Below are positions 5,151-60,100 of a DNA stretch of 64,000 nucleotides, one piece after another (within the stretch, counting starts at the first letter, position 1; each line of letters begins with the position of its first letter). A program made the position numbers and the translations under genes. Origin of the DNA: Branchiostoma lanceolatum (Eukaryota > Chordata > Leptocardii > Amphioxiformes > Branchiostomatidae); contig NC_089722.1 in NCBI RefSeq assembly GCF_035083965.1, positions 32,969,958 to 33,033,957 on the forward strand. The letters are read 5' to 3'. Below the pieces are notes generated by a model. The model made no database searches and was not told the DNA's origin. It saw nothing but the letters and a program-made list of their open reading frames with translations.

Positions 5151-5643
5151 ATTCGATAATCAGCCCCTTAGTTGTTTTCTACTGGCGAAGTGCACTTCGG
5201 ATTTTGATATCTTGTGATATTGACATGATAAGTTCATCATTGTGGAATGGTAGATAACCGCTTCTTACAAAGAGTAAGTGGTGTTGATCCCCCTATCGAC
5301 ATTTCCCCCAACTGTAATAAGGACACGATGTTTTTTGAGACTTTGAAAAGAATATTTCAGGAATGGGTTGACGGACTGTCATGATTTTTGGAATGTAAGT
5401 GATGATTTACATAATCAGATGCTAATTTGGATGTAATTAGTATAATGGGTGGGGAATATACTTTAGTACTATATACTTAATATAGACTCTACGAATAAAA
5501 TATGTACAATAGAAAATCTGGGATGAATTGTCTAAAATGCAATTGTTTCTTTGTGGTTTCCAATGTGTTATTGTCGAATATATAATACCTGAAAAAGCTG
5601 TTGTGGTTCATCAAATCGGCAAGCTTATACCTAAAATATATCG
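5151..5643. other. Upstream region of the zinc-finger gene
   Basis: AT-rich, no coding frame. It probably contains an intron or the 5' region of the following gene. A likely splice acceptor (TTCAATGCTACAG) ends at 5664, inside the open frame just before the proposed start codon. Confidence 0.3.
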
Positions 5644-5700
5644 TTGTCTACTTCAATGCTACAGGTCCGCTCTTCAGAAGTTGTTTCAGTTCTTATCATC

Positions 5701-8379
5701 ATGACAACGACAAATGCAAGTAGCTCTGAACAGGTAGGTGGGGGAACAGAAAGGCTGTCTGATAGCAGTGTTGCAAGTACCCAACACTACAGGTGTGAGG
5801 AGTGCGGCAAGCAGTTCAGTGGGCTTGGGGATCTGAAGAAACACATTAGGACTCATACAGGGGAGAAACCCTATAGGTGTGAGGAGTGCAGCAGGCAGTT
5901 CAGCCTTTTCGGCGCTTTGAAGACTCACATGCGGACTCATACAGGGGAGAAACCCTACAGGTGTGAGGAGTGCAGCAGGCAGTTCAGTGAGCTGGGCAAT
6001 CTGAAGCAACACATCAGGACTCATACAGGGGAGAAACCCTACAGATGTGAGGAGTGCAGTAGGCAGTTCAGCCTTTTCGGCGCTTTGAAGACTCACATGC
6101 GGACTCATACAGGGGAGAAACCCTACAGGTGTGAGGAGTGCGGCAGGCAGTTCAGTCGGCTGGGTACTCTGAAGGTACACATGCACACTCACACAGGGGA
6201 AAAACCTTACAGGTGTGAGGAATGCAGCAGAAAGTTCATTCAGCGGAGTGATTTGAAGAAACACATGCGAATTCACACCGGGGAGAAACCCTACAAGTGT
6301 GAGGAGTGCGGCAGGCAGTTCAATCAGCTGGGTGATTTGAAGAAACACATGCGAATCCACACCGGGGAGAAACCCTACACGTGTGAGGAGTGCAACAAAC
6401 AGTTCAGGGAGCTTGGGAATCCGAAGAAACATATTCGGACTCATATAGGGGAGAAACCCTACAAGTGTGAGGAGTGCACCATGCAGTTCCGACGTCACGG
6501 TGATTTGAAGGCTCACATGCAAACTCACACAGGGGAGAAACCCTACAGGTGTGAGGAGTGCGGCAGGCAGTTCAGTCAGCTGGGTGATCTGAAGACACAC
6601 AGGCACACTCACACAGGTGAGAAATCCTACAGGTGTGAGGAATGCAGCAGGCAGTTCGTTCAGCTGAGAGATTTGCACCCGGTGGTTGTTTTACGCCGTT
6701 GTTTCTCACAAACTCACACAGGGGAGAAACCCTACAGGTGTGAGGAGTGCACCATGCAGTTCCGACGTCACGGTGCTTTGAAGGCTCACATGCAAACTCA
6801 CACAAGGGAGAAACTCTACAGGTGTGAGGAGTGCGGCAAGCAGTTCAGTGGGCTTGGGGATCTGAAGAAACACATTAGGACTCATACAGGGGAGAAACCC
6901 TATAGGTGTGAGGAGTGCAGCAGGCAGTTCAGCCTTTTCGGCGCTTTGAAGACTCACATGCGGACTCATACAGGGGAGAAACCCTACAGGTGTGAGGAGT
7001 GCAGCAGGCAGTTCAGTGAGCTGGGCAATCTGAAGCAACACATCAGGACTCATACAGGGGAGAAACCCTACAGATGTGAGGAGTGCAGTAGGCAGTTCAG
7101 CCTTTTCGGCGCTTTGAAGACTCACATGCGGACTCATACAGGGGAGAAACCCTACAGGTGTGAGGAGTGCGGCAGGCAGTTCAGTCGGCTGGGTACTCTG
7201 AAGGTACACATGCACACTCACACAGGGGAAAAACCTTACAGGTGTGAGGAATGCAGCAGAAAGTTCATTCAGCGGAGTGATTTGAAGAAACACATGCGAA
7301 TTCACACCGGGGAGAAACCCTACAAGTGTGAGGAGTGCGGCAGGCAGTTCAATCAGCTGGGTGATTTGAAGAAACACATGCGAATCCACACCGGGGAGAA
7401 ACCCTACACGTGTGAGGAGTGCAACAAACAGTTCAGGGAGCTTGGGAATCCGAAGAAACATATTCGGACTCATATAGGGGAGAAACCCTACAAGTGTGAG
7501 GAGTGCACCATGCAGTTCCGACGTCACGGTGATTTGAAGGCTCACATGCAAACTCACACAGGGGAGAAACCCTACAGGTGTGAGGAGTGCGGCAGGCAGT
7601 TCAGTCAGCTGGGTGATCTGAAGACACACAGGCACACTCACACAGGTGAGAAATCCTACAGGTGTGAGGAATGCAGCAGGCAGTTCGTTCAGCTGAGAGA
7701 TTTGCACCCGGTGGTTGTTTTACGCCGTTGTTTCTCACAAACTCACACAGGGGAGAAACCCTACAGGTGTGAGGAGTGCACCATGCAGTTCCGACGTCAC
7801 GGTGCTTTGAAGGCTCACATGCAAACTCACACAAGGGAGAAACTCTACAGGTGTGAGGAGCACGGAAGGCAGTTCAGTCAGCTGGGTAATCTGAAGACGC
7901 ACAGGCACACTCACACAGGGGAGAAACCCTACAGGTGTGAGGTTTGTGGCAGGCAGTTCAGTCAGCTAGGTAATCTTAAGACACACAGGCACACTCACAC
8001 AGGTGAGAAATCCTACAGGTGTGAGGAATGCAGCAGGCAGTTCATTCAGCTGAAAGATTTGCACCCGGTGGTTGTTTTACGCCGTGATTTGAAGGCTCAC
8101 ATGCAAACGCACACAGGGGAGAAAGCCTACAGGTGTGAGGAGTGCACCATGCAGTTCCGACGTCACGGTGATTTGAAGGCTCACATGCAAACTCACACCG
8201 GGGAGAAACCCTACAAGTGTGAAAAGTGCAGCAAGCTTAAGCAGTTTCGATTGCCGAGTAGTCTGAGGGCTCACATGCTGGGGGCAGACGGAGCTCTCTG
8301 TCGCCTTGGTAATCATTTGCACCCGGTGGTTATTTTACGCCGTCCCGGTTGGCTAAAAACTACTACCGGGTCCCAATGA
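5701..8379 (+). CDS. Poly-C2H2 zinc-finger protein with 29 finger modules
   Basis: A probable nuclear DNA-binding protein. The frame is open from 5644 (a TTG) but the first ATG in a good context is at 5701 (MTTTNASSSEQ), and a splice acceptor may lie at 5664. After about 29 residues come tandem modules of 28 residues, Y-x-C-x2-C-x3-F-x5-L-x2-H-x3-H with the linker THTGEKP. Modules 1-12 are repeated exactly as modules 13-24. Modules 11, 23 and 27 are interrupted by LHPVVVLRR; module 25 has lost its second zinc cysteine (CEEH); module 29 is degenerate (CEKCSKLKQF...). Helix positions -1, 2, 3, 6 are mostly Q/R/E/L, G, D/N/A/T, K/T, so neighbouring fingers would read similar bases. Modules 2 and 4 are identical too. 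No KRAB, BTB, SCAN or other effector domain is seen. The last residues (HPVVILRRPGWLKTTTGSQ) come from an adjoining MITE. It could be a complete gene or the last exon of one; the coding capacity is certain, the expression is not. Confidence 0.87.
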   Translation: MTTTNASSSEQVGGGTERLSDSSVASTQHYRCEECGKQFSGLGDLKKHIRTHTGEKPYRCEECSRQFSLFGALKTHMRTHTGEKPYRCEECSRQFSELGNLKQHIRTHTGEKPYRCEECSRQFSLFGALKTHMRTHTGEKPYRCEECGRQFSRLGTLKVHMHTHTGEKPYRCEECSRKFIQRSDLKKHMRIHTGEKPYKCEECGRQFNQLGDLKKHMRIHTGEKPYTCEECNKQFRELGNPKKHIRTHIGEKPYKCEECTMQFRRHGDLKAHMQTHTGEKPYRCEECGRQFSQLGDLKTHRHTHTGEKSYRCEECSRQFVQLRDLHPVVVLRRCFSQTHTGEKPYRCEECTMQFRRHGALKAHMQTHTREKLYRCEECGKQFSGLGDLKKHIRTHTGEKPYRCEECSRQFSLFGALKTHMRTHTGEKPYRCEECSRQFSELGNLKQHIRTHTGEKPYRCEECSRQFSLFGALKTHMRTHTGEKPYRCEECGRQFSRLGTLKVHMHTHTGEKPYRCEECSRKFIQRSDLKKHMRIHTGEKPYKCEECGRQFNQLGDLKKHMRIHTGEKPYTCEECNKQFRELGNPKKHIRTHIGEKPYKCEECTMQFRRHGDLKAHMQTHTGEKPYRCEECGRQFSQLGDLKTHRHTHTGEKSYRCEECSRQFVQLRDLHPVVVLRRCFSQTHTGEKPYRCEECTMQFRRHGALKAHMQTHTREKLYRCEEHGRQFSQLGNLKTHRHTHTGEKPYRCEVCGRQFSQLGNLKTHRHTHTGEKSYRCEECSRQFIQLKDLHPVVVLRRDLKAHMQTHTGEKAYRCEECTMQFRRHGDLKAHMQTHTGEKPYKCEKCSKLKQFRLPSSLRAHMLGADGALCRLGNHLHPVVILRRPGWLKTTTGSQ
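5788..7845 (+). repeat. Perfect in-frame tandem duplication, 2 x 1029 bp
   Basis: Bases 5788-6816 and 6817-7845 are two head-to-tail copies of a 343-codon block (eleven 28-residue fingers plus one 35-residue interrupted finger). Every segment I compared was identical, including synonymous sites, which implies a very recent unequal exchange, gene conversion, or an assembly duplication. Confidence 0.9.
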
Positions 8380-8450
8380 ATACGCCAGCGGCGGAAAGCC
8401 CCTTTTGTCCGAAGAGAGACCGTCGAAACCACGGTAGACTCGATGCCAGG
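8316..8450 (+). mobile_element. MITE fragment overlapping the zinc-finger C-terminus
   Basis: GCACCCGGTGGTTATTTT near 8319 and AAAACTACTACCGGGT near 8355 form a hairpin. The sequence after it (TTGTCCGAAGAGA, then ACCACGGTAGACTCGATGCC) matches the 3' half of the element at 18155-18445. The zinc-finger ORF enters this fragment and stops in it at 8377-8379, so about the last 20 codons are transposon-derived. Confidence 0.65.
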
Positions 8451-8810
8451 TTAGCCTAGGTGCCTTCCTCCGATGTAACCACTGGCTCAATCTTTTTGCT
8501 TGCTAATCCGTACTTATATAATAAACAAGCGAAAGAGGGTGGCACCCAGGCTATTAGGGCATAAGGTGAAACTACGAATACACGCATGATCGTCACATGT
8601 CTTACAGGGACCTGATTTTGATACATTGAGAATTTTTTTTGGAGATGCTAGTAATGAACCTTCGTATCCTACGAGTAAACACACTTTGATTTTGCAAAGA
8701 TGGAGAACATTTTGTATTTCAAACATTTTGTTGGCTAGGTTGTAGTAAATATAACATTTTTTTCAGACAAAACGTCAATTATGAATTAGCTCATCAATCT
8801 AGTATTAGTG

Positions 8811-11241: not shown

Positions 11242-14200
11242 TTAAAGATTAGTGAGAGTCCCATCGAGAACAAAATCGGGTTGGTCGATCCCTACGTTGG
11301 AATGGAAAAGAATCTTAGAAATAATTCCCATCTCCCATTCCCCTATCCAGCTTTTCCCACCGCCGGGCCCCCTACTAGCGACCATATGCCCCGCCTGACT
11401 GTTGACTCCAAAAGCTTCTCGTATCTTCCCTCCCTGTATCTTTATCGCTGAATCTGATACCGAGGCAATCCATGACTTTCATCACCATTGCCTCTTTGTA
11501 CACCATCAACTCTTCGTACCTCAGAACTACATGGAAACGTTGAGTGGAACCATGGTCTGTCATCGCGACTGCTTTCTGCATCAGCTCGAGCCAAACACAT
11601 GCCGTAAACCAGACTATACCATGGGGGACAGGGAGAGATGCGAACATGGGGTTTTCCCATGGAGAGGACGCAGCCATAACGGCTATTTTCCTACTCTCGG
11701 CGTGATCTAGCTTGAGAGCTGTTAGCAGCCAGTACTTCCAATAGCTTCCTCCTGTGATCATGCGTGCGTAGGAATCCACTGTGCCGGTCAGACCACGATA
11801 CAAAAGGATGGTCTTCGCACCTGGCACGGCTTTGCACAGTAGATCTGCTATAGAAGTGACCTGTGGATGCATTGAGATTGCAATGAATCATCCTATTGGC
11901 AGTATTGCTACAATTGGAACCAAGCATAATAGACAGCAGAAAATCTTTGATATCTTTCTATACAAGACATAGTTTTTTTCATATCGAGTGGGGCTTATAG
12001 CATTCCATATTTGACTATTGACTATTGGCGGAATGTTCATCATCTGTCTGACCCAAGTCCTGTAGACACGGGACTTTTCCAAGTGTGAGTATAACAGTTT
12101 ATTTCTCAACGTGTAATTTACTACGTCACTCAGATGAACTTTAATGCTGTTACTAACCTGTCCACGCATTTTGAAACACACCACCGTTTGGGACGGGTTG
12201 CCCTGCCACAGCGTGAAGTTGAAAAGGGTGTTTGTGTGGCAAATGACGCCCATCAATTTCGCCATGTCGTCTTCATCTAGTTTCTTCTTTGTGACGACAT
12301 ATTGACAGAAGCTGGTGTAAACGTCAGACTCGGAGATGGTGTGGATAACGCCGCTCGCCTGAAGGGCCTTCGTCAGCAATGTTGAACCACAGCGCGCTGT
12401 TTGAAAATGTGTGACGTTAATAACGTCTTTTATAGTGACTGGCGTTTTTTTACGAATTTTCTTTAATACTTTTGACCTTCATATAAAATCTTTGCACCTT
12501 CCAAAGCATCTGACCTTCCTACAAAACATTTGACCCTCCTACAATCATTTTACCTTCCTATAAAACATTTGACCCGCACACAAAACATTTGACCCTCCTA
12601 CAAACATTTTATCTTCCTAAGAAATCTTTGACCTTCCTATAAATCCTTTGACCATCCTACAAACATTTGACCTTCCTACAAACCCTTCGACCTTCCAAAA
12701 GGTTGGCAGAATGGCACATATGTGTCATTTTCTATCTATTGTTTGATGAAATGAATTTGAATCTTAGCATGAAAGTCCTAATTATTTTAGCGTTGGTTTA
12801 TGTAGTAAAATCAGCCTTTTCATAATGCTCAGATTTGAATCGTAACAATGACCCAAAACATGTGACTGGCTCTTGTAAGCCTTGTTTTGTGGTGAAATTA
12901 CAGCAAAACCTTCAAAAAACAACTTTAAGGTAGACAAGCTTTAGTTACTTACTGGTTTGGAAGAGGAATGTAGTAGTGATGTGTTTGACGTCCTTAGCAA
13001 CCTCAGCAGCCACGCCCGGCAACAGGGAGAATGGAATAACCAGCAATGTTTCAGCATCTAGACGCAGTGCCTAAAATCAAAGAGATAAAGGCGACTGAGT
13101 TTTGAATGGCCCCTTTGAAAACTTTATGTACCATGACAAAAAACATCAGTTTTGAACCATAAAGGCGCGCTGTTTAAAAATGTATGACGTAATTGACGTC
13201 TACTATTGTGACCGCCATGACTGTCCGAAGAGTGACTTCAATGCAATCAATTTTCCCTCACGCTGCCCTGCTGGGTAATCCTGTTTATCGGTCTGTATCT
13301 GAATCTGTATGGCCGGTAAACCGCACTTCGGCGAAACACACCAAGCACGCGGCACGGCAGCAGCTGTTTATATTACACTGAACGGTCTGATGCACCTTAC
13401 TTTTGCACATCTGACTGCAACTATTCAGTGAAGATGTTCCTACAGTATTTGATGACAACAAGTTTCATCCCAATGTGGTTCTCGGGAAAAACGAACGGTC
13501 CATGTACGGCAGGCCCCTGTGTGGTGTCCAGTAGTAACCCTTGTGGTACATGGTGTCAGCTGGCTCTCACAGTTAGGTCGGTGTATCTTTGGCAGGGACT
13601 CGGTCTTATCTAAGTCCGAATCGAAATACCTAGGGGCCCACTCGAGTTGCAATCGCCGTGAGTCTTTCGAGACCCCGCCCTAAAATACAACAAGTTAGGC
13701 TCGCTACATGACGGTGTTGTCAAAAACAGCCTCTAAGGTACTCGACGCGGATTTCCTGTTTTCAGCGGTTGCCAACTATGATTTAATTTTCATATCTTAT
13801 ATATCTAAATATTTCATATCTATCAATACCATCTACAATCCCTTCAGAATCGTGACGTAAACTAGAAAGGCCGTCATTTACTCCTGAACAAACATAACAC
13901 ATTTCACTCTCTCCTCATGCAATAATGGACGTTTTGTAATGATCTAAGCTACATTTGTTTAAATGTGTCGTTCTTTGCGCGTGTGTTCCTGCAACATGAC
14001 CTCAGGTAACCTGAATGGAACACGTGTTCTCTGGCCAGCAGCAAACGGAACACGCGGAACCTTAGCTAGAACGTGGAGCGGAGATTGCACTTTTGGCCTG
14101 CTTTTGGTCTGAAAATAGGCCCAAAAGTCTGCATTAAGCATTTTGAAGTGACGTACACCAGACATGTGATTGAAGTCCTATACGAACATGTTCAATGCAC

Positions 14201-14772: not shown

Positions 14773-17420
14773 TTTGGAAGTGCTTCTAGAATATGAACAA
14801 TGCGACGCCTTAGCATGAAAGTTGGTAAAGTAAATAATGAGAAATAAAGTTTTAAAAAACTCCAACTAAAAACAAATGACGTGTGACGTCAGCACTGGGT
14901 CAAAGTTCGTCGGAAGTTTGTACCGCCCCCCGTCCCGGTTGAGAGAAGTGAAGAGAAAAATCGATGTCTTGGTACATGAAACTAGGATGTACTTTGTGTA
15001 GTGATTGGGGCAATGTCTGTCTAACAATAAAATACTATAAGCCATACATCTGCAGCGATGTTTAAATTCAAAGCTATTATCATTCCAAACACAAACAAAA
15101 AAGTTTTTGACCATACTGTAAATCGTACAAAACAGCTACAAAATAAGCAAACATACGCCGTTGTTTATTCTTTGCCAAACTTTTTTTTCATTCGATCAAC
15201 AAGAGAAACATAATGTTTACCTTGCGCCCTCCAGATTTTACTGATCATGCCTAGGTTTTTCACTCATTCATCTTTTACGCTGTTGATTTTTAAAGTGTGT
15301 CTTGTGTATATATACTTCTGCAATAAAGATGATGTTGAACACCCATCCATATAATCGAATCAACAAATCCTTGCAAGTAACAAAATTTAATGTAAGAGCA
15401 AGAAAATTTGAGGTGAAGACAACCACAAGACATAAGATAGTGACCCAGTACTTTTCGTCTCAAGATTCTTCTTTATAACTGGTCTGATATAATTCAGACT
15501 TCAAGGTGATAAGAAACAGTCTGTTAAGATGTTTTGGGTACAGCTTTGAGTTGATTGAGTTTTCATTTAGCACTCCTTTTAATGCATTTAACCCTATTTA
15601 GACTGGACTTTTTACAAGTGGACGTTAATGATTTCTGTAATTTTGGTAATGTTATTACGTAATATGACGTAAATATGACGTCATCTTTTTCTTTTGCCTA
15701 AATATGGAATTTCCGTAATATCTAAAGGTATTAAACAAAAAAAATGTGTCTTATTGATGTCAATGTATACAAAGATATCTGACGTTAATGCTAACTACAT
15801 AGAATGACGTCATGTGTTGTAAGCGATCCCTTTGGATGCGCCATCTTGGATCGGCCATTTTAAATTTTTTTAAAATCTTTTTTTCAACTGATGACCCCAA
15901 AACACACTGAAAATAGACTATAAACGTTAATCTTAATGCTCCCGATAAATATACTACCAGGTAGTAACGATTTGGAAGACGAAAAAGCCTGTTGATACCG
16001 AAAATAGAGTAATGGTCCGCCATCTTTGATTTTGACCGATTACGTCATCAAATTAGCATAAATTATGAATATTCAATCATGAAAATTATGTCTTGTTATA
16101 TATGATGTTAAACATGTTGGAAAACTAGTGTGGTTGAGCCAGAAAACCTAAGAAATATCATTGTTTTTACAAAATTAGTAATTTTTGCATAAAATGCCTG
16201 TCAGAAACCCGTTGCGATGACTACACGAAAAATGATAAACTTTAACCATTATCATAAAATTGTTGCCAGCTAAATCTTACGAAAAGTCACCCATTTTGGT
16301 AGTCCTAGAATTCGTCGTTTGGCAGTTATACGATGTCAAAGTTGGGGCGGGCACTTTTAGCCCCCCCCCCCTCCCCCCACACACAGTCTAGGTAGGGTTA
16401 ATAGTTTGTTCGGAGGCGCGGCGAAGAATTTGCTCCAAATTACTAAACTAGCTGGTGAGTTACGTCGAAGGCCCAGGGCGATTATGACGCCTAAACAGAT
16501 ACAGATTCTATATATAGTGTTCCTTAATTACACACCCTAAGGCCACAAGGTGACACACTTTTACACATGGACCTAGAAGACCCTAGATTGTAGCTACTTA
16601 AGGCAAATAAACAGTTTCTTTTCCTCATCAATTTTCTCCATGGAACGAGCTAAATGTTTATTGGATATGCAAAATATGCCTTGTAAACGATACAAAAATT
16701 TGCGCAACCCTTTTCTTTGACGTGATCATTACATTTTATTCAGCCCACAATGAACAAAAGGCGTGAAACACGCCTCCACTCCCTCTTGCATGTCACTGAT
16801 ATGTTGTTTATCATTGAACTATTTTACAACTAAAAGCGCCGAATTTTAGTCTCTACCAGGCTAACCGTGCCGGCTATAGGGAGAACATTTGCCGGGGGAC
16901 TTTGGTCATGGAGGGTAACATTCTCCGTAGCCGACTTCCTTTATGCAATTGATTCGTTTAGCCAATTTCTACTATATTCCCAGCGACCCGCGGAGGCTGG
17001 CAGAGCCTAGCCGAATTTCACGACATGAGTTTCATATTGCCTAGCAACGGTTGCCATGTAGATAAAATCTATATTAGAAATATGAATTTTATGGCATGAA
17101 ATGTTCATGCAAAGATTAATGCACTTATTGTTATCTTTCACCAATCTCCTTGCCTATTATATAAGAATGGGCCAGCCTTGAAGTGCTCCCAGTGACCCTT
17201 GACCTTTGAAACTGGAAACTGGTGTATTCAGTTTGACAGCTACATTTTGTACGCCCATGAGGCTTCCCAACAGGCAAGACTTAACACAATATTTAACTAT
17301 CTAGTTCCGCGTCAAAACTATTGATGTTATGTTGAATACCTACTTTTGCGGACACCTCCCTGAGAGGGGCCTGCGTGTGGGCGTCTCGAGAACGCTCAAG
17401 AGGAGGGACCGGTTACACTA
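14773..17420. other. Gene-free region with probable old repeats
   Basis: The part next to 14772 should hold the promoter of the sulfotransferase-like gene. 15650-16060 has several ATGACGTCAT-type words and the phrases CGCCATCTTGGATCGGCC and CCGCCATCTTTG in opposite settings, which suggests an interspersed element. 16355-16380 is a C run. 16860-16940 has an imperfect inverted repeat around CCGGCTATAGGGAGAACATT and ACATTCTCCGTAGCCG. No gene was recognised. Confidence 0.35.
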
Positions 17421-17811: not shown

Positions 17812-18154
17812 CTGATTATGTGATTTTATGTGAAAAAACGCCCAACAGGCAACAGCTTTTATTTTCCACAGTAAATACAATGTTGATGTAGTAATCATCT
17901 ATATAATTGTCAATAAGAAATATATATTAATGCAATCAATCAATCAATCAATAATTCGCGAGCATCAGGAGATAATGCAGCACCCTTTAAACTTTACTTC
18001 TCCAGCTTCTACCGACGTTCGATGTTGTAAATGCTATCAGAATTAATCTCTGGCAATATTTACATTATAATATCATTATCAAGTATGTGTTAAGTGAGCT
18101 CACGGGTGGATGCTGTAAACATTTCCGCTGCTGTATGACTTCGAAATTCCTAAC

Positions 18155-18445
18155 CTGGCATCCAGTCTGGCGTGTCGTCATTAGCTATAGGCCGGGCTAA
18201 GTTCGGCCAAGCTTTCTTTCGGGAAGACTGAGCTTTCTGCCGTTACCGTACAGGTTATCTTCGGCAACAGGTGGATATCACATGGTAAAAATGTAATCGG
18301 TCGCAACGATAAACGGGGAACAAATGAACACCTACCACGTAAAACTACTATCGGGTGCCAAATATTACCCCCGGGGGCGGTAAACCCTTCTGTCCCGAAG
18401 AGATCCCGGCCAATACACGGTAGACCGGATTCCAGATTAATGGTC
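18155..18445. mobile_element. MITE, family member of the zinc-finger-associated fragment
   Basis: Imperfect inverted ends: CCTGGCATCCAGTCTGGCG near 18155 and, on the other strand, CTGGAATCCGGTCTACCGTG near 18440. The right half matches 8355-8450 through AAAACTACTATCGGGTGCC, TGTCCCGAAGAGA and CACGGTAGACCGG. About 290 bp, no coding capacity. Confidence 0.6.
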
Positions 18446-18449
18446 CCTT

Positions 18450-20830
18450 GACTTGGGATCTAAAATACAACGAGCCCAAGGAATCATACTAGAATCTAAC
18501 TTATGTTCTGATGTTAAACACCTCTATCCAACTTCTTACAGTGTCTTTAACTTTCAAAAAGAAACACGGAACCACCGACTTTTCAATACGAGACGATTTA
18601 GTAAAGGTCTGTTAGGGTGTGTATTTGTACTTTCTGTTTTGTATTTTTCAAACCCTCCACAAAACACCCATTACTCAAAATGCATTACTAGGATGCTGTA
18701 TATCTTGTCATTATAACATACATTTTCAGGGGGGGGGGGCAAAGTTTCTCAGGTTTAGAAAACAACACGGAACTACTAATTTTCTAATCCAAGACTGCCA
18801 AACATATGTTTTTTTCATGACGTGTACGAAATCCGCGCTGTGTATATATCTTCCCGAATGAAAATGGTCTAACGCTCTAAAAGTCAACAGCAGCCTATGA
18901 CCTCATACTAGAATCCGAGATATCTTGTGACTAAAAAACATATCTGTCTTTCTTCCTTCAGTGTTCCTAACACCAGAAAACAACACGGAGCCATAAACTT
19001 ATAAATACGAGACGACTTACAACAGTGTGTCCGTGAGCGCATTCAAACGCTTTAAACCGCGCGCTGTGTAACTTTCTATTTAGAAGTTTTTCCCTCGAAT
19101 CCTCCACAAAACACCCGTTACTCAAATTCAATTACTAGGATGCTGTATATCCTGACGTATTACAACATGCATTTTAGGGGTGTCAAAGGTTCGACGGTCT
19201 AGAATACAACACGGAACTACTAATTTTCTAATCCAAGACTACCAAACACACGTTTTCTTTGACATGAATGAATTCCGCGCTCTATACATTTCTGCCCGGA
19301 TCCAATTTTCCAAACGCTGTACTAGTGGCCCGTAGCCTATGATCTTATACTAGAATTCTAGCTATCTTGTGACGTTACAACAAGTCTTTTCAACTTCTTA
19401 CAGTACTCCTTACACCAGAAAACAACACGGAACCATCAACTTTTCCAATACGAGACGATTTACAATAGTGTGTCCGTGAGCGCATTCAAACTCTTTAAAC
19501 CACGCGCGCTGTGTTACTTTCTATTTAGAAATCTTTTTTTTCTCAAATCATCCGCAAAACGCCCGTTGCTTATAATGAATTACTAGGATCCTGTATGTTT
19601 TGTCGTATTAAAACATACATTTTTGAGGGGGTCAAAAGTTTGTAGGTCTAGAAAACAACACGGAACTATTAATTTTCTAATGCAAGACTGCCCAACTCAC
19701 GTTTTATTTGACGTGCACGATATCCTCGCTGTATATATTTCTGCCCGGATGCCATTTTCCAAACGCTGTACAAGTGGCCCGTAGCCTATGATCTTATACT
19801 AGAATTCTAGGTATTTTGTGACGTTACAACAAGTCTTTTTAACTTCCTAAGGTGTTTGAAACACCAGAAAACAACACGGAACCATCATTTTTTCGATACG
19901 AGACGATTTACAATAGTGTACGTGTCCGCGAGCGCATTCAAACTCTTTAAACCGCGCGCGCTGTGTTACTTTCCATTTAAAAGTTTTCTCTCGAATCCTC
20001 CACAAAACACCCGTTACCCAAATTGAATTACTAGGATGCTGTATATCTTGACGTATTACAACATGTATTTTAGGGGTTTCAAAGGTTCGACGGTCTAGAA
20101 AACAACACGAAACTACTAATTTTCTAATCCAAGACTACCCAACACACGTTTTATTTGACGTGAATGAATTCCGCGCTCTATATATTTCTGCTCGGATGCA
20201 ATTTTCCAAATGCTCTACAGTGGCCCGTAGCCTATGATCTCCTACTAGAAAACTAGGTATCTTGTGACGTTACAACAAGTCTTTTCAACTTCTTACAGTG
20301 TTCCTTACACCAGAAAACAACAAGGAATCATCGACTTTTCGATACGAGACGATTTACAGTAGTGTGTCCGTGAGCGCATTCAAACTCTCTAAACCGCGCG
20401 CGCTGTGTAACTTTCTATTTAGAAATCTTCTTTTTCTCAAATCATCCGCAAAACGCCCGTTGCTTATAATGAATTACTAGGATGCTGTATGTTTTGTCGT
20501 ATTAAAACATACATTTTTGAGGGGGTCAAAGGTTTGTAGGTCTAGAAAACAACACGGAACTATAAATTTTCTAATTCAAGACTGCCCAACTCACGTTTTA
20601 TTTGACGTGCACAATATCCTCGCTGTATATATTTCTGCCCGGATGCTATTTTCCAAACGCTGTACAAGTGGCCCGTAGCCTGTGATCTTATACTAGAATT
20701 TTAGCTATCTTTTGACGTTACAACAAGTCTTCCTACGGTGTTTTAAAAACAAGAAAACAATACGGAACCATCGACTTTTCAATGCGAGACGATTATCAAA
20801 TGTGTCCGCGAGCGTATTTTTACTCTTTTA
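18450..20830 (+). repeat. Hierarchical satellite: about 220, 447 and 895 bp
   Basis: Two related half-units alternate. Type A carries AACAACACGGAACTACTAA and type B carries AACAACACGGAACCATCAA. Type B landmarks fall at about 18563, 18977, 19421, 19869, 20316 and 20757 and type A at about 18761, 19205, 19654, 20101 and 20549, so the A+B period is close to 447 bp. Sequences in every second 447-bp unit are closer to each other (for example 19120 with 20030, and 19560 with 20458), giving a higher-order period near 895 bp. No open frame spans a unit. Confidence 0.85.
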
Positions 20831-20839
20831 ACCGCGCCA

Positions 20840-57191: not shown

Positions 57192-60100
57192 ATAAAACAG
57201 AGTCCTAAATGATTACAGATATGTGTAGCTTCAATTGAATTCGACGCTTTGTCACAGCTACATAGACCCTACATACACAGAAAATTTGAAGTCAATCAGC
57301 CTAGCCGATCGTGAGAAAATGACTTGACAAGTTGTCATTGTGTCCATCAGCCCCCCTCCCCACTTTACCGGAGTGTGGTCATGTCAACATCTCCCAGAAT
57401 GTGATCAACTAATGTAAATATTGTCAAAATTGCAGGAATCAGTAGTCAATATAACCCTCTTACTGACATGGGAATTTGATGTTGATATATGCTGGTAATG
57501 AAGAAATATACACTTTGGAAGTTGACCTTGATTTGACCTCTAATGTTGTTGACACCCAGCCCCATTCAAAACTTCCCCGGAATTATAAAAACATGTCTGA
57601 TTTTGGAAAAAGTAGTAATAATCAGTAGCACTTATATCACGCCAACTTATATTGGAATGCCAAGTCAATCCATGATTTTGATTACAGGATATACACTTTG
57701 GAAGTTGACCTACTTTTCAGGTGTTGTATTATTGACACCTAGTCCCATTCCAAAATTCCCCGGAAATATAAGAATATTTCTGATTTTGAAAAAAGGTCTT
57801 AAAATCAGTAGTTCTTATATCTATCCATCTTATGTAGAAATATCAACTCAATCCATGATTTTGATGACAGAATATACACTTTGCAAGTTGACCTACTTTT
57901 CAGGTGTTACATTATTGACACCTAGTCCCATTCAAAAATTCCCCGGAAATATAAGAATATGTCTGATTTTGGAAAAAAATTCTTAAAATCCGTAGTACTT
58001 ATATCTATCCAACTTATGTAGGAATATGAAGTCAATCCATGCTTTTGATGACAAAATATACACTTTGGAAGTTGACCTACTTTTCAGGTGTTATATTATT
58101 GACACCTAGTCCCATTCTAAAATTCCCCGGAATTATAAAAATATGTCTGATTTTGAAAAAAGGTCTTAAAATCAGTAGTTCTTATATCTATCCAACTTAT
58201 GTAGAAATATCAACTCAATCCATGATTTTGATGACAGAATATACACTTTGGAAGTTGACCTACTTTTCAGGTGTTACTTTATTGACACCTAGTCCCATTC
58301 TAAAATTCCCCGGAATTATAAAAATATGTCTGATTTTGAAAAAAGGTCTTAAAATCAGTAGTTCTTATATCTATCCAACTTATGTAGAAATATCAACTCA
58401 ATCCATGATTTTGATGACAGAATATACACTTTGGAAGTTGACCTACTTTTCAGGTGTTACTTTATTGACACCTAGTCCCATTCTAAAATTCCCCGGAATC
58501 ATAAAAATATGTCTGATTTTGAAAAAAGGTCTTAAAATCAGTAGTTCTTATATCTATCCAACTTATGTAGAAATATCAACTCAATCCATGATTTTGATGA
58601 CAGAATATACACTTTGGAAGTTGACCTACTTTTCAGGTGTTACATTATTGACACCTAGTCCCATTCAAAAATTCCCCGGAAATATAAAAACATGTCTGAT
58701 TTTGAGAAAAGTTCTTGGAATCATTAGTTATGTAGGAATTTCAAGTCAATCCATGATTTTGATTACAGAATATACACTTTGGAATTTGACCTACTTTTCA
58801 GGTGTTACATCATTGACACCTAGTCCCATTCAAAAATTCCCCGGAATTATAAAGAAATGTCTGATTTTTGGAAAAATAGTAACAATCATTAGTACGTATA
58901 TCCCTACAACTTATATGGGAATATGAAGTTAATGTCTGATTTTGATGATGAAATATACAGTTTTGAAGTTGACCTTGATTTAACCTCTATACTTGTTGAC
59001 ACCCACCCATATTAAGAAATTCCCCGGAATTATAAAAACATGTCTGATTTTTGAAAAACTAGTTGGAATCAATAGTACCTATATCCCTACAACTTATATG
59101 GGGATGTCAAGTCAATCCATGATTTTGATGACAAAATATAAGCTTTGGAACTTGACCTACTTTCCATTTGTTATGTTATTCATACCAATTCAAAAATTCC
59201 CCGGAATCATAAAACCATGTCTGACTTTTGGAAAAGTAGTAAGAAGCATTGGTCTTTCCAGCTCTTGGTGAAATATCAAATCAATCCATGATCTGGTTAA
59301 GAAAATAAAGACTTTGAAAGGACATGTAAATATGGGTGACCAAATTATCATAGGTGTGGTAACTTTAATATTCCCTAGGCAAGTATTGAATTGTTTTGTT
59401 TCCCCCAAATTAGTATTAGTCATTAGTACTCATCTTTCTTAATCATATACAGGATAATCAATCAAATATTATGCATTTGATCAAGAAATATAGACTACTG
59501 TATACATGTATGTTAGTTGGTGAGCCATATTGATATACAGATTGACAAGTGTGTTTGCTTCAATATCCGCCCAACAGGAAATGATATGCAATTTTCATGA
59601 TTTCCTTCATTATTTTAGGTCATTAGTACTTGTATCTTCACTACAATCAGGGGAATATTACTATTAAAAGTAATGGCGTTATATTTGTTGGGTGTAGCAT
59701 GTTGACTATAGTGTATTATGTGACTGCTCTGCTTTACAGGCTATAAGCGACCAAAGCATTTTTAAACAGTGAAGTACTAAGTATTGCAGATATCATGCTG
59801 ATTTTATGAAATGATTATCTAAAAAATGCCAAGCAATTGTCCTGCTCCGTTCACACATATATATATACTAGTACATGTGTCTGACAAATTTAAGTGGTGT
59901 ATGGTGACTGTTAGTATTGAAGGGTCTAATACAAAGTATTCAAAGATCATCTATGTGTTGTAGTGATTGCTTTGTATCATTGGCCAGCAATAATTTTCCT
60001 TTCTTTTGTTTTGAGGAAGAGGTTTAAATTATGTTCAATGATTTTGTTCAGGTACTTCCTCAGTTTGAATGAAATTAAGCAATGTACTAGTATGATGGCT

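Follow-up and report, generated by a model that had tools for sequence, protein, structure and literature searches.

We found that a poly-C2H2 zinc-finger array of Branchiostoma lanceolatum carries, within three of its fingers and in frame, a 24-bp word that also forms part of the arm of a foldback MITE-like element lying at the 3' end of the same open frame. As judged from the sequence, the word looks to have been multiplied by block duplication of the array, at spacings of 357 and 1029 bp, rather than by repeated insertion, and the fingers that carry it are probably spoiled or loosened by it. Positions refer to the window, i.e., the whole 64,000-nucleotide stretch of DNA that was analysed, and the features are listed in Table 1.

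Table 1. Features of the zinc-finger array and of the foldback elements related to the 24-bp word
Feature	Position	Strand	Remarks
Poly-C2H2 zinc-finger ORF	5635..8379	+	29 finger units; first in-frame ATGs at 5656 and 5701
First copy of the tandem block with 1029-bp period (12 fingers + 21 nt)	5787..6831	+	No difference over 1045 bp when shifted by 1029
Finger unit with word copy 1 (6676-6699)	6628..6732	+	35 aa, +21 nt; sole His residues at x10 and x23, counted from the CC pair
Second copy of the block	6816..7860	+	100% identical to 5787..6831
Finger unit with word copy 2 (7705-7728)	7657..7761	+	Same sequence as the unit with copy 1, by duplication
Finger unit with word copy 3 (8062-8085)	8014..8127	+	38 aa, +30 nt, C-x2-C-x22-H-x3-H
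GATTTG-word-GATTTG	8056..8091	+	GATTTG at 8056-8061 and 8086-8091; hexamer is also regular finger sequence in the array
MITE-like foldback element without its left terminus, joined to the last finger	~8280..8453	+	Encodes the C-terminal end and stop codon (8377-8379) of the ORF
ATTTG plus word copy 4	8315..8343	+	Left arm of the foldback element; 28/29 identical to copies 1-3
Fuller relative of the element, with paired termini	18150..18441	.	Counterpart of the word at 18334-18357 (minus), 82 bp inside the right end

The 24-bp word and its matches

The word is present without change at 6676-6699, 7705-7728 and 8062-8085 (copies 1 to 3) and with one mismatch at 8320-8343 (copy 4). A search of the 64 kb that covered both strands and tolerated up to six mismatches gave a sole further match, on the minus strand at 18334-18357, with five mismatches, inside the element at 18 kb. 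The coordinates given in the original prediction, which had been made from the letters of the window, were all confirmed, as were the one-change copy and the GATTTG hexamers at 8056-8061 and 8086-8091. The stretch common to copy 4 and copies 1 to 3 comprises 29 bp (ATTTG plus the word), of which 28 are identical (BLAST within the window, E of about 1e-5), a match that excludes chance; the copies are nevertheless not independent of one another. Read in frame 0, the word encodes HPVVVLRR, and the other two frames are likewise open, so an in-frame insertion required nothing but the right length. Three of the four copies lie in fingers. The proposed location of the word inside zinc fingers therefore holds for copies 1 to 3, each of which is in frame, but not for copy 4, which is outside any finger and within the foldback element. 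A degenerate pattern of the word gave no matches in a viral contig collection, a weak negative that concerns viral sequences only.

The zinc-finger array

Tandem 28-aa units joined by TGEKP-type linkers make up the open frame, and 24 of the 29 have the spacing C-x2-C-x12-H-x3-H; the exceptions are the three units with the word, a unit with a Cys-to-His change (7846-7929), and the last unit, which continues into element sequence. The whole ORF protein scored 425.8 bits against Pfam zf-C2H2, and no PR or KRAB domain was present among the best 25 of 34 Pfam families for this open frame. For divergence between units, we compared 14 distinct units (91 pairs), keeping the Cys-to-His unit and setting aside exact duplicates as well as the last unit and those with the word; mean pS was 0.39 and mean pN 0.16, counts that treat recombining units as independent. 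At the framework residues, pN was 0 at the first Cys, the Phe and both His, and 0.11 at the second Cys. Along the helix, with the numbering and the DNA-contact positions (-1, 2, 3 and 6) being those that we assume, pN was highest at 6 (0.56) and -1 (0.52), followed by 3 (0.38) and 2 (0.08); three non-contact positions had values of 0.46, 0.42 and 0.41, so position 3 is no more variable than these. The array probably evolved as a DNA-binding protein.

The foldback elements at 8 and 18 kb

The element at 8 kb joins the last finger at about 8279-8282, and the C-terminus and stop codon of the ORF are consequently element sequence. Its foldback structure was seen by BLAST, in which 8282-8410 matched its own reverse complement with 66.7% identity over 129 columns, and its relationship to the element at 18 kb by a BLAST match of 8356-8453 to 18341-18439 (76% identity over 100 columns). 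The right end, 8430-8454, matched the left end of the 18 kb element, 18150-18174, with 88% identity over 25 bp, a match that is weak taken alone (E 0.02-0.04). In four arm-to-arm comparisons by local alignment, none of 200 single-base shuffles reached the score in any case, with a modest margin for the left arms against each other (score 22 versus a shuffle maximum of 19.5). The 18 kb element is short, its termini, at about 18151-18174 and 18416-18439, form terminal inverted repeats (0/200 shuffles as good), and its flanks are, by eye, compatible with a TA target duplication. Two copies of the element are thus present in the 64-kb window. Their folding is not exceptional, since 19/200 and 15/100 shuffles, respectively, were equally stable, and an inverted repeat search at default settings returned nothing in 8200-8600 or 17900-18700; it is BLAST and local alignment that reveal the arms.

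That the word is related to a MITE, as had been proposed, is borne out both by the 29-bp match, which continues into the element, and by the arm-to-arm scores that none of 200 shuffles reached. It is, however, no MITE end. The word in the 8 kb element belongs to the left arm beside the loop, its last two bases falling within the predicted hairpin loop, and its equivalent at 18 kb is 82 bp inside the terminus; it is thus an internal piece. At the ends of the insertions in the fingers, element termini are absent.

A second foldback MITE-like element, at 8452-8562 with the ends TAGCCTAGGTGCC and GGCACCCAGGCTA, directly adjoins the first; its fold has a z of -2.5 (3/200 shuffles equally stable), and a similar end is present at 2897-2917. 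About 200 bp past the 18 kb MITE begins a 447-bp tandem repeat of 4.9 copies (18644-20837).

Junctions of the word in the fingers

Immediately to the right of the word, copies 1 and 2 have TGTTTCTCACAAAC and copy 3 has GATTTGAAGGCTCACATGCAAAC. The original prediction of a 30-bp insertion that splits a finger is accurate for copy 3, where the gain is a clean +30 nt, and fails for copies 1 and 2, where it is +21 nt and the right side is TGTTTCTCACAAAC. The last 24 bases of the right flank of copies 1 and 2 are identical to the unit at 6460, and TGTTTC, to the right of the word in these copies, had no clear source within the window. We considered TGTTTCTCA of copies 1 and 2 as possible extra MITE sequence; its best exact matches elsewhere in the window, of 11-12 bp at 15156 and 41905, are outside both elements. 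The left half of the word finger is closest to one finger type (43/48) and the right half to another (40/42). A special seam between two finger types, marked by the word, was rejected, because the same left/right conflict is seen in 8 of 14 other units, the Cys-to-His unit included, and we therefore place no weight on this mismatch.

GATTTG occurs 11 times in the ORF: four occurrences adjoin the word and seven encode Asp-Leu in the recognition helix of ordinary fingers, three of the seven being duplicates through the 12-finger block. The hexamer is native to the array, and ATTTG, i.e., five of its six bases, precedes the word in the element too. The flanks are therefore better read as native finger sequence giving a 5-bp microhomology, and their interpretation as an insertion footprint is most likely wrong. 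With GATTTG in seven ordinary fingers, a target-site duplication around the word is not distinguishable from flanking repeats, an illustration of how a flanking repeat inside a tandem array can mimic such a duplication. At the left junction the microhomology is 5 bp (ATTTG), and at least 5 bp was found in 0.37% of 428,624 array-to-element joins; at the right junction it is 2 bp, which is nothing unusual, with at least 2 bp in 15.5% of joins, as counted against one assumed finger (the 8128 unit).

Duplication of the word-bearing fingers

Copies 1 and 2 lie in blocks offset by 1029 bp (12x84+21), and because the blocks show no difference over 1045 bp, these copies represent one site that was duplicated. 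Such perfect identity over 12 fingers means that the duplication happened very recently or that the assembly is wrong here. Copy 3 lies 357 bp (4x84+21) beyond copy 2, a period that was also found by TRF. Compared with copy 1, copy 3 has 8 changes in the 132 bases leading up to the word, none within it, and 6 in 108 bases after the divergent right junction, so that its left junction and neighbouring fingers are as in copies 1 and 2, with about 94% identity. Homology of this older duplication extends over three units, the next unit upstream differing at 19 of 84 bases, and the older step may have been either block duplication or conversion. Since the left junction is common to copies 1 to 3, a single capture would account for all three. 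The suggestion that the word was copied through the array is thus right in that it was multiplied with the array, but the copies do not represent independent events: block duplication, with 1045 bp identical, separates the first two.

Probable effect on the fingers that carry the word

With the histidines at x10 and x23, no H-x3-H pair remains in copies 1 and 2; the copy 1 unit scored 13.7 bits against zf-C2H2, matching only the first 16 of 23 positions, whereas copy 3 keeps H-x3-H at C-x2-C-x22 and scored 21.8 bits in two stretches. The cut-off is 25.2 bits, and the one normal unit that was scored had 34.8. The finger in copies 1 and 2 looks dead rather than re-spaced. Two other units are below the cut-off, namely the last one (17.4 bits) and the finger at 7846-7929 (14.4 bits), which stands at the end of the duplicated block and has its second cysteine replaced by histidine (CEEH). 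AlphaFold2 models of the copy 3 and copy 1 units with their neighbours, for each of which the input was an alignment of 11 three-unit stretches from the window, had mean pLDDT values of 46.4 and 44.0, respectively, and as normal fingers were unfolded too, nothing was concluded from them. A more elaborate role would make the MITE arm a recurrent hinge that splits the array into modules that bind separately (10 normal fingers, an insert, 11 normal fingers, another insert and so on), with the helix of copy 3 re-registered onto a partly MITE-encoded LRRDLKAH that reads new DNA bases; we regard this as very improbable.

Origin of the insert

We lean, if only slightly, towards a single templated or microhomology-guided capture from a MITE arm, followed by ordinary duplication of the array. 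At its 3' end the poly-C2H2 gene passes into the truncated foldback MITE. While the array was being repaired or replicated, a strand with the GATTTG of a finger at its end would have switched once onto the ATTTG of the MITE arm, most simply that of the neighbouring 8 kb element, copied 24 bp as far as the hairpin loop (ending in CGCCGT) and then rejoined a finger at the equivalent position. The older duplication, or a conversion, would subsequently have set copy 3 apart from copies 1 and 2, and a very recent duplication of 12 fingers would have given rise to the latter two. The insert would disturb the zinc-binding geometry of the carrying fingers, which would then serve as spacers at most.

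The neighbouring arm is the closest candidate for the donor, in that the word has 1 mismatch in 24 with it and 7, 12 and 5 with the other three arms. If the donor were a random copy diverged by 24%, a match of at least 28/29 would have P = 0.0036, a test based on two element copies in one window; a closer copy may lie elsewhere. The match of the insert to the candidate donor 8315-8343 at 28/29, together with the 5 bp of junction microhomology, is what is expected of a templated insertion. For published insertions of this kind, 2-12 bp of microhomology, on average 3.7 bp, is given for 80% of junctions among 103 events on one chromosome (PMC8421209). As to distance, copy 4, the presumed donor, is 258 bp from copy 3 today, in an array that has changed since. 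About 85% of templates are primed within 10 bp of the breakpoint in PMC5068794, and for the yeast events that PMC8421209 cites, templates are placed within 100 bp; published templates are thus mostly nearer, which counts against a template switch from the local donor.

Several other histories lead to related outcomes. A whole MITE may have transposed into a finger and later lost all but 24 bp, as would suit a word that is MITE sequence in a window with two related elements; we consider this rather unlikely, as the copies in fingers show no terminal inverted repeat, the word comes from inside the element (82 bp from the 18 kb end), GATTTG belongs to the array itself, and, by eye, the ends of the element seem to fit a TA better than a 6-bp duplication. 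Lower still do we rate the insertion of a 24-bp MITE end with duplication of GATTTG, copy 3 being the original and copies 1 and 2 decayed. Copy 3 does read exactly GATTTG-word-GATTTG, and copies 1 and 2 keep the same kind of right flank (its last 24 bases being those of unit 6460), but the word is not a terminus, GATTTG is found in seven ordinary fingers, ATTTG is element sequence as well, and we know of no mobile unit consisting of a 24-bp piece that lacks termini.

Unequal recombination, starting from an array that terminated in a finger-MITE fusion at ATTTG and whose MITE arm was then rejoined to a downstream finger by a second exchange, would otherwise give the same sequence outcome as template switching. 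In its favour, a MITE fusion does close the array (about 8279-8282), and the word is flanked by sequence of the array; however, it would take two exchanges between unlike sequences, and the upstream junction of the fusion seen today is a different one, and we assign this history a rather small chance, similar to that of the loss of a whole MITE. A somewhat larger though still minor chance is that the 12-finger duplication is an artefact of assembly, i.e., a mis-joined haplotype or an over-expanded repeat, in which case copy 2 may not exist. The absence of any mismatch over 1045 bp would fit this; against it, zinc-finger arrays ordinarily gain and lose units (PMC3890296), and copies 1 and 3 stand regardless.

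Comparison with known systems

Turnover of Prdm9-type arrays as a coding minisatellite (PMC3890296) resembles the present array in its 84-bp units, gain of blocks, and amino acids that vary strongly at positions -1 and 6 of the helix. In our case, by contrast, a non-finger scrap was co-duplicated, variation is not limited to contact positions, and PR and KRAB are absent from the best 25 of 34 families. Microhomology-mediated templated insertions (PMC8421209, PMC5068794) share the short, near-identical insert and the microhomology at the junction, but here the presumed donor, at 258 bp, is farther off than most, the event would be old, and the donor is a candidate. The palindromic elements of Rickettsia also place foldback repeat sequence in frame within protein genes; as described in PMC10969869, they are about 150 bp long and reside in many genes, as opposed to 24 bp taken from a single arm in a single array. 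Lancelet MITEs such as LanceletTn-2, which is mentioned in PMC5802833, are similar in being small foldback DNA elements beside or in a gene. Among the matches listed from titles and abstract openings of the open-access literature, none described a MITE arm inside a C2H2 array, an absence that means little. We regard the finding as real but modest, a curiosity in which transposon scrap was multiplied by ordinary array turnover, and not as a new system. It provides a small, clear example of how turnover of a zinc-finger array takes up such scrap and multiplies it by block duplication, and by itself opens no long-standing question.

Other features of the window

A 183-bp tandem repeat of 9.6 copies was found at 57505-59242, with further 183-bp arrays from 54903. 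The minus strand has ORFs at 11375-12478 that may be sulfotransferase-like.
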